The position numbers and the translations under genes were made by a program. DNA of 61,817 nt from Gemella bergeri ATCC 700627 (GTDB lineage: Bacteria > Bacillota > Bacilli > Staphylococcales > Gemellaceae). Positions 8,170-45,045 of this stretch are shown in pieces. Under the pieces are notes generated by a model that did no database searches, was not told the origin of the DNA, and was given only the letters and a program-made list of their open reading frames with translations. Numbering within the stretch: the stretch's first letter is position 1; every line of letters starts with the position of its first letter. Location of the stretch: contig NZ_KI271813.1 in assembly GCF_000469465.1 (NCBI RefSeq), positions 1 through 61,817 of the forward strand, read 5' to 3'.

Positions 8170-8365
8170 AAAAAACCCTAGATATGCTAGGCATATCTAG
8201 GGACGAAAATTCTCCGCGGTTCCACCCTGATTAGTAAAAACTCAACTCATTTTTAGTATTAAATTTTATTAATGCCATTTTTAAATTATTGATCTTTCAC
8301 CATCATCAACTCGCTTTAATATAGATATTTTACCATTTATTAACTAAAGTTTCAAGTAATTGCAG
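8170..8365 (-). promoter_or_regulatory. T-box riboswitch (glycine) with terminator, upstream of glyS
   Basis: On the minus strand the T-box sequence AGGGTGGAACCGCGG lies at 8214-8228. The distal Stem I loop GATGGTGAAAG is closed by TTGAT/ATCAA, and the AAAGCGA block sits just 5' of it. ATGGCATT supplies a GGC (glycine) specifier at 8274-8276. Downstream is a terminator with an 11-bp perfect stem, CCCTAGATATG/CATATCTAGGG (8176-8186 with 8192-8202), followed by TTTTTT. Uncharged tRNA-Gly should stabilise the antiterminator and allow glyS expression. The 5' end is estimated; no separate Stem II is evident, as in glycine T-boxes. Confidence 0.92.
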
Positions 8366-43838: not shown

Positions 43839-44042
43839 CTACTCTGAAATTACTTGATCAAGGGTTGATACTATTCTTGCTCGACCTTTTATTTTGAAAT
43901 TTTTAATATTATCAAAAATATTCAAAATAATTACCTCGCCTTTATTTAAAATCTCCAAAGATTCTTCGTTGTTTATTTTCTTGGTAATAACTTTAACATT
44001 ATCCACTTCGGCTCTTATTATTATATAATCAGCTTGTTTCAT
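43839..44042 (-). CDS. mtrB: TRAP-family RNA-binding protein (MtrB-like), divergent
   Basis: A 67-residue homologue of the tryptophan-activated RNA attenuation protein, an 11-subunit ring in Bacillus that binds (G/U)AG repeats in trp mRNA. DYIIIRAEVDNVKVI and LNKGEVIILNIFDNIKNFKIKGRARI align well with the family. Of the RNA-contacting Lys-Lys-Arg triad (37, 56 and 58 in Bacillus) the positions here read Ile31, Lys50 and Lys52. The loop between strands that covers tryptophan is about three residues shorter. It follows folE by 12 nt, as in the Bacillus mtrAB operon. Whether it still binds tryptophan or RNA is open. Confidence 0.82.
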   Translation of the reverse strand: MKQADYIIIRAEVDNVKVITKKINNEESLEILNKGEVIILNIFDNIKNFKIKGRARIVSTLDQVISE

Positions 44043-44054
44043 ATTTTCACCTTA

Positions 44055-44615
44055 TTACAGTTTAATTTTATATTGAATATCTTTTACTAAATTGTTATCT
44101 TTTAAAAATACCCCTGTTTTTTTACTGGTTACCGTCTTAGAACCTATTTTTTTTATTCCTCTCATAGCCATACACATATGCTCCGCTTCTATAACAACGT
44201 AGACGCCTTTAGGTTGTAGTTGTTCTTCCATTGCATTTACTATCATAAGGGTCATATCCTCTTGAATTTGCAAGCGGCGACTCGCACTTTCAACAAGACG
44301 TGCTAATTTGCTAAGTCCTGTTATTTTTTTATTTTTAGGAACATATGCTATATGACATACTCCATAAAACGGAAGCATGTGATGTTCACATAGTGAATAA
44401 AATTGAATATCTTTCACTAATATCGGTTCATCGTTATCTGATTCAAAAAATGTATTAATTTCTTCTTTGGGATCTACATTCGTCTTTGACAACAATTCTT
44501 CGTACATTTTTACACAACGTTTCGGTGTATCAATAAGTCCTTTTCTTGTAGGATCTTCTCCAAAATTTTCTAACAAAGTTTTTATAAGTTCCATTGACTG
44601 TTCTTTATTCTTCAA
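44055..44615 (-). CDS. folE: GTP cyclohydrolase I
   Basis: FolE (MtrA) makes dihydroneopterin triphosphate, the first step of folate synthesis. ENFGEDPTRKGLIDTPKRCVKMYEEL, FYSLCEHHMLPFYGVCHIAYVP (zinc Cys and His) and EAEHMCMAMRGIKK (second Cys) are diagnostic. I prefer a TTG start at 44615, 6 nt after GGAGG (44622-44626), giving about 186 residues; an ATG seven codons later is an alternative. It heads a folE-mtrB operon and lies downstream of hup. Confidence 0.95.
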   Translation of the reverse strand: MKNKEQSMELIKTLLENFGEDPTRKGLIDTPKRCVKMYEELLSKTNVDPKEEINTFFESDNDEPILVKDIQFYSLCEHHMLPFYGVCHIAYVPKNKKITGLSKLARLVESASRRLQIQEDMTLMIVNAMEEQLQPKGVYVVIEAEHMCMAMRGIKKIGSKTVTSKKTGVFLKDNNLVKDIQYKIKL

Positions 44616-44724
44616 AACCAACCTCCAAATTTTTTATGATAACATTATTTTACCACAAAAACGGCTAATTCTATAGAAAAATATTTTCTGTTCATAAACC
44701 GTAAGGTTGCTAATTTGACAAAAT

Positions 44725-44760
44725 AAAAAGCCTAAAATACAAACTATCTTAGACCTTTTT
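44725..44760 (-). terminator. Terminator after hup
   Basis: On the minus strand AAAAAG-G-TCTAA pairs with TTAGGCTTTTT with one bulged G, and ATTTTG follows. It separates hup from folE-mtrB. Confidence 0.75.
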
Positions 44761-44772
44761 ATTTATTTCCTA

Positions 44773-45045
44773 TTATTTTACTGCATCTTTAAGTGCTTTA
44801 CCAGCTTTGAATGCAGGTACTTTACTAGCTGCAATTTCAATTACTTCATTAGTTTGTGGGTTACGACCTTTACGAGCAGCTCTTTCTCTTACTTCAAAGT
44901 TACCAAATCCAATAATTTGAATTTTTTCACCTTTAGCTAGAGTTTCTTCAACTGTTTCTACGAATGCTTCGATAGCTGCAGTTGCTTGTTTTTTTTGTAG
45001 TCCTGATTTCTCAGCTACTTTTGAAATTAATTCTGATTTATTCAT
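44773..45045 (-). CDS. hup: DNA-binding protein HU
   Basis: The 90-residue histone-like protein that bends and compacts [93 protein letters not shown] matches HU along its full length, with the DNA-arm [14 protein letters not shown]. Preceded by AAAGGAGGT-like spacing and a strong extended -10 promoter. Position before folE-mtrB equals Bacillus hbs-mtrAB. Confidence 0.98.

Follow-up and report, generated by a model that had tools for sequence, protein, structure and literature searches.

TRAP, the product of mtrB, is a textbook case of ligand-gated RNA binding. Its ring has also served as a model for studies of oligomer geometry (PMC3184956, PMC3435397), in which S72 without K15 goes with rings of 11 subunits (PMC3184956). 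In contact with RNA, E36 holds G3 and D39 holds G1, K37 stacks on G1 and F32 on G3, and E42 pairs with R58 (PMC4854314). Our literature search found no paper naming Gemella together with TRAP and mtrB.

We analyzed a 61.8-kb stretch of DNA from Gemella bergeri (61,817 nt, hereafter the window) that carries an mtrB-like gene behind hup and folE. The following features were recognized:

43839..44042, minus strand: mtrB-like gene, a 67-aa ORF encoding a diverged TRAP of the TrpBP family
44046..44052, minus strand: likely ribosome-binding site of the mtrB-like gene, read from the sequence as AAGGTGA on the minus strand
44055..44621, minus strand: folE, GTP cyclohydrolase I, 188 aa, TTG start (Pfam GTP_cyclohydroI, 232 bits; NCBIfam FolE)
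44725..44759, minus strand: terminator-like hairpin between hup and folE, from folding of the region
44773..45045, minus strand: hup, HU DNA-binding protein (Pfam Bac_DNA_binding, 124 bits), marking the ancestral hup-folE-mtrB order

The initial annotation had placed the gene correctly at 43839-44042; the ORF is on the minus strand, and the plus strand is closed there. The 12-nt gap between folE and the mtrB-like gene contains the likely ribosome-binding site. The order hup-folE-mtrB was found in all Gemellaceae loci examined, with gpsA ahead wherever the locus extends far enough, and also in many ordinary TRAP loci, so that the conserved folE-mtrB position pointed out earlier is both real and ancestral. 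In two Gemellaceae loci (L014 and L018), folE runs into the mtrB-like gene with an ATGA overlap, which suggests translational coupling. Of the 11 Gemellaceae loci compared, 10 (L002, L005, L010, L012 and L014-L019) have a hup-folE gap of 53-75 nt, which includes a terminator-like hairpin immediately ahead of the ribosome-binding site of folE; the stem of this hairpin is often AGTTAC/GTAACT. The window species is the sole exception, its gap of 157 nt (44622-44772 region) containing a different hairpin. The AGTTAC hairpin was considered as a target and set aside, as a similar stem forms the terminator after folP in one genome; only 2 of 36 strict terminator-like stems carry AGTTAC, and we draw no conclusion on the hairpin in this role.

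Membership of the TRAP family, proposed from the sequence at the outset, is borne out by sequence and profile comparisons. The mtrB-like protein matches Pfam TrpBP (PF02081) with 32.1 bits (cut-off 21.3, E 1e-7) and solved TRAP chains such as 1wap (E 8e-4). Furthermore, alignment of the Gemellaceae and ordinary TRAP profiles with hhalign gave 97.1% probability (E 6e-11), the triad positions and the DE loop being in ungapped register. Only the curated MtrB equivalog model NF009724 (NCBIfam) was matched by each of the 11 distinct Gemellaceae proteins; the window protein scores 30.1 bits with it, below its cut-off of 117. The nearest named relatives of the window protein, with 85-88% identity, are those of Gemella cuniculi, G. 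haemolysans and G. sanguinis. Because the hup-folE-mtrB order is shared, the Gemellaceae gene descends from the same TRAP gene as the ordinary ones and has long stood behind folE. Judged by sequence and gene order, it is a vertically inherited TRAP orthologue that has kept its ancestral position after hup and folE. Its product should nevertheless not be named TRAP in function.

A single TrpBP gene is present in each of the 15 Gemellaceae genomes, including all nine of the genus Gemella, and we found none in the other genomes among the 157 Staphylococcales searched. Across the sampled Bacilli, 273 of 399 genomes carry one. Among the matches listed, E-values outside Gemellaceae were at most 4e-24, versus about 1e-5 to 1e-8 within the family. 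A Gemellaceae profile run against 398 Bacillota genomes retrieved elsewhere only ordinary TRAPs among the 29 loci read, and no relative of the Gemellaceae protein was found in the viral contigs, phages or plasmids searched. In the tree, the Gemellaceae proteins are monophyletic on a long stem, with a mean distance of 0.45 within the group and 2.08 to other TRAPs. Mean identity between Gemellaceae and ordinary TRAP genomes is 31% for the TRAP-like protein, 49% for FolE and 65% for HU. The mtrB-like gene has thus diverged more than its neighbors folE and hup in a lineage that is somewhat fast overall; FolE and HU, too, have diverged further in Gemellaceae than in other Bacilli, and part of the divergence of the TRAP-like protein is therefore lineage-wide.

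The known TRAP targets are gone from these genomes, as shown below, and the gene could accordingly be imagined as a relic in decay that happened to survive behind folE once the trp operon was lost. This explanation is hardly credible. Pairwise dN/dS within Gemella, where computable, was 0.04-0.12 at near-saturated synonymous sites, much like that of folE; such purifying selection refutes decay, barring constraint from an unseen overlapping element. The reading frame is moreover intact in all 15 genomes, which span two genera, and its product has acquired new invariant residues. Purifying selection together with the new invariant set supports a new constrained function.

To locate these changes, we compared the 11 distinct Gemellaceae proteins with 58 distinct TRAPs from elsewhere in Bacillota, using B. 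subtilis residue numbering. In the 58 ordinary TRAPs, T25, R26, G27, T30, H34, E36, K37, D39, E42, Q47, T49, K56, R58 and G59 are invariant. In contrast, T25, R26, G27, T30, K37, Q47, T49 and R58 are absent from all Gemellaceae proteins and D39 occurs once, while K56 and G59 are kept in all 11, E36 in 10 and E42 in nine. T25, G27, T30, Q47, T49 and S53, which from TRAP structures we take to be tryptophan contacts, correspond in Gemellaceae to K, N or S, E, N, a variable residue and mostly V or I, respectively. The differences reported at Gln47, Thr49 and Ser53 hold, the window protein having Asn, Phe and Lys. Likewise, the BC loop, described as a tryptophan-covering loop about three residues shorter than usual, is three residues shorter in the alignment. 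The RNA triad K37/K56/R58, which reads K, K, R in 58 of 58 ordinary TRAPs, became I, K and K, Q, I, V or S. Replacement of the first Lys by Ile was thus read correctly, and K56 is kept; the replacement of Arg by Lys applies to the window species and a few others but not to the family, in which position 58 takes any of five residues. No alignment with TRAPs brought the same ligands back at shifted positions.

Within Gemellaceae, 27 of 67 columns are invariant. The invariants specific to the family are R13, E15, K20, K25, N28, E30, I37, N47, I52, N54, S65, L67 and S72, of which the loop residues K25 to E30 depend on where the three-residue gap is placed, which may be off by a few positions. For this reason, the counterparts of F32 and H34 were left unassigned.

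A monomer model from AlphaFold, built on an alignment of four Gemella sequences, reached a pLDDT of 58 and was not used; a PDB fold search with this model listed no TRAP. The ring is therefore taken from homology. The Gemellaceae proteins carry S72 and E15, a weak pointer to an 11-mer.

The trp genes themselves are missing. None was found among the ORFs of the window, as the initial annotation had remarked, and at the genome level none of the 15 Gemellaceae genomes encodes TrpE/PabB or TrpC, both of which were found in 14 of 14 control genomes. TrpP is also absent from all 15. We then searched for TRAP-binding arrays with a pattern of six (G/U)AG triplets at 2-nt spacing and up to two mismatches, which arrays with many 3-nt spacers could escape. 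In eight ordinary TRAP genomes used as a positive control, the best matches, with up to 11 repeats, precede trpP, trpG/pabA and trpE (names given from our own reading of the encoded proteins), and the same pattern also yields background matches at two mismatches. In Gemellaceae there were 0-4 matches per genome, close to the reversed control, apart from one genome; the matches are short chains that lie mostly within long open frames. The excess in the exceptional Gemella genome is due to a minisatellite of 20-nt units (GAGTTGAGAAGAACACAGAA; G002:C14, about 100340-100590), open on the reverse strand. These searches thus returned neither a trp operon nor convincing arrays in these genomes. Furthermore, a hup-folE gap of 53-75 nt that already holds a hairpin and a ribosome-binding site leaves hardly any space for an 11-site array.

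T-box leaders were inspected in two genomes, where they precede aminoacyl-tRNA synthetase, methionine synthesis and transport genes; none was recognized as a tryptophan T-box, specifiers not being rigorously assigned. Two tandem T-box leaders lie 40 nt apart before a MetE-like gene (L081 and L086; G000:C51, 923-1133 and 1175-1395), and the window has a weak T-box before glyS (8196-8349, minus strand, 47.6 bits, below the gathering score).

Without tryptophan synthesis, Gemellaceae must import tryptophan. The protein might then still sense it via compensating residues and act on degenerate NAG sites of an unrecognized tryptophan uptake gene, a reading with which the retention of E36, K56 and E42 would agree, as these residues form part of the site that recognizes G. 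We consider this very improbable, as none of the 11 proteins keeps any of the five tryptophan-contact residues that are otherwise invariant, TrpP and convincing (G/U)AG arrays are absent, and NAG chains are longer in shuffled sequences than in the window itself. That tryptophan control has been lost, as the initial annotation surmised, is well supported by the missing contact residues, TrpE, TrpC, TrpP and convincing arrays across the 15 genomes. Its further suggestion of another ligand or RNA is compatible with our results.

The shorter BC loop, with its nearly invariant new residues, could alternatively close the subunit interface without any ligand, giving a ring locked in the active state that would bind RNA of another sequence constitutively. 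Retention of E36 and K56 would fit such a ring; however, a scan of the 61.8-kb window for triplet arrays other than KAG gave nothing convincing. We regard a locked ring as unlikely.

A role linked to folE had been raised as well. The adjacency is real but carries little weight, as it is common to ordinary TRAPs; being ancestral, the linkage is by itself no evidence for a role in folate. All 15 Gemellaceae genomes encode FolP, and none of them has a match to PF04715, so that PabB seems to be missing as well as TrpE. Since PabB seems absent where FolP is present, p-aminobenzoate is probably imported, and FolE would most simply serve folate made from it. The main rival to a ring with another ligand is built on these observations: the protein would have a protein partner rather than bind RNA, most simply tuning FolE for folate, like GFRP in effect and not by descent. 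In its favor, folE is adjacent in all Gemellaceae loci examined, with the ATGA overlap in two, FolE plausibly serves folate in all 15 FolP-bearing genomes, and on the RNA rim position 58 varies freely and position 39 varies. However, adjacency is not specific, the folE-mtrB order being ancestral also in genomes whose TRAP has an ordinary RNA function, and the 11-fold TRAP ring mismatches the decameric symmetry of FolE. This rival is also improbable, if slightly less so than the locked ring.

We favor, at a probability of roughly 0.6, a TRAP orthologue that has ceased to sense tryptophan and to recognize (G/U)AG and was re-specialized as a ring with another ligand and another RNA or protein partner. 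This reading is preferred because new invariants occur at the old pocket and the E36/K56/E42 group remains. Gemellaceae no longer have tryptophan synthesis or the known TRAP regulon, and the protein would still form a TRAP-like ring that neither senses tryptophan nor reads (G/U)AG. A ligand other than tryptophan could occupy the subunit interface, covered by the K25-x-N-N-E-E loop and the N47/N51/I52/N54 stretch; the ring could contact a different RNA or a protein, perhaps via the kept E36/K56/E42 group. Given these three residues, some RNA recognition may survive. The more specific proposal, that after loss of the trp operon Gemellaceae made of TRAP a regulator whose ligand and whose RNA or protein partner are both new, appears evenly poised.

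If true, this would be a natural change of specificity in a ligand-gated RNA-binding ring. The other TRAPs examined are nearly uniform at the tryptophan and RNA sites; a lineage that has naturally rebuilt and then conserved both sites would reveal what else the TRAP ring can recognize and how a regulator outlives the loss of its whole regulon. One small protein is enough to put the question to the test directly.

Compared with described systems, the Gemella protein resembles GFRP, the feedback regulator of eukaryotic GTP cyclohydrolase I, only in a possible mode of working, a small ring on FolE; to our knowledge, the two are not homologous. The best-scoring solved relatives by sequence are double-length MtrB chains of 168 residues (PDB 9be8 and 9bds), which differ in having two TRAP repeats per chain with ordinary motifs, whereas the Gemella protein has one repeat, in which the motifs are altered. 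With ordinary TRAP/MtrB, it shares the Pfam TrpBP family, the place behind hup and folE, a similar length, and the residues E36, G41, E42, K56, G59 and A61, retained throughout or nearly so. Unlike ordinary TRAP, the Gemellaceae proteins lack K37, R58 and T25/G27/T30/Q47/T49, have a BC loop shorter by three residues, and occur in genomes devoid of TrpE, TrpC, TrpP and convincing (G/U)AG arrays.
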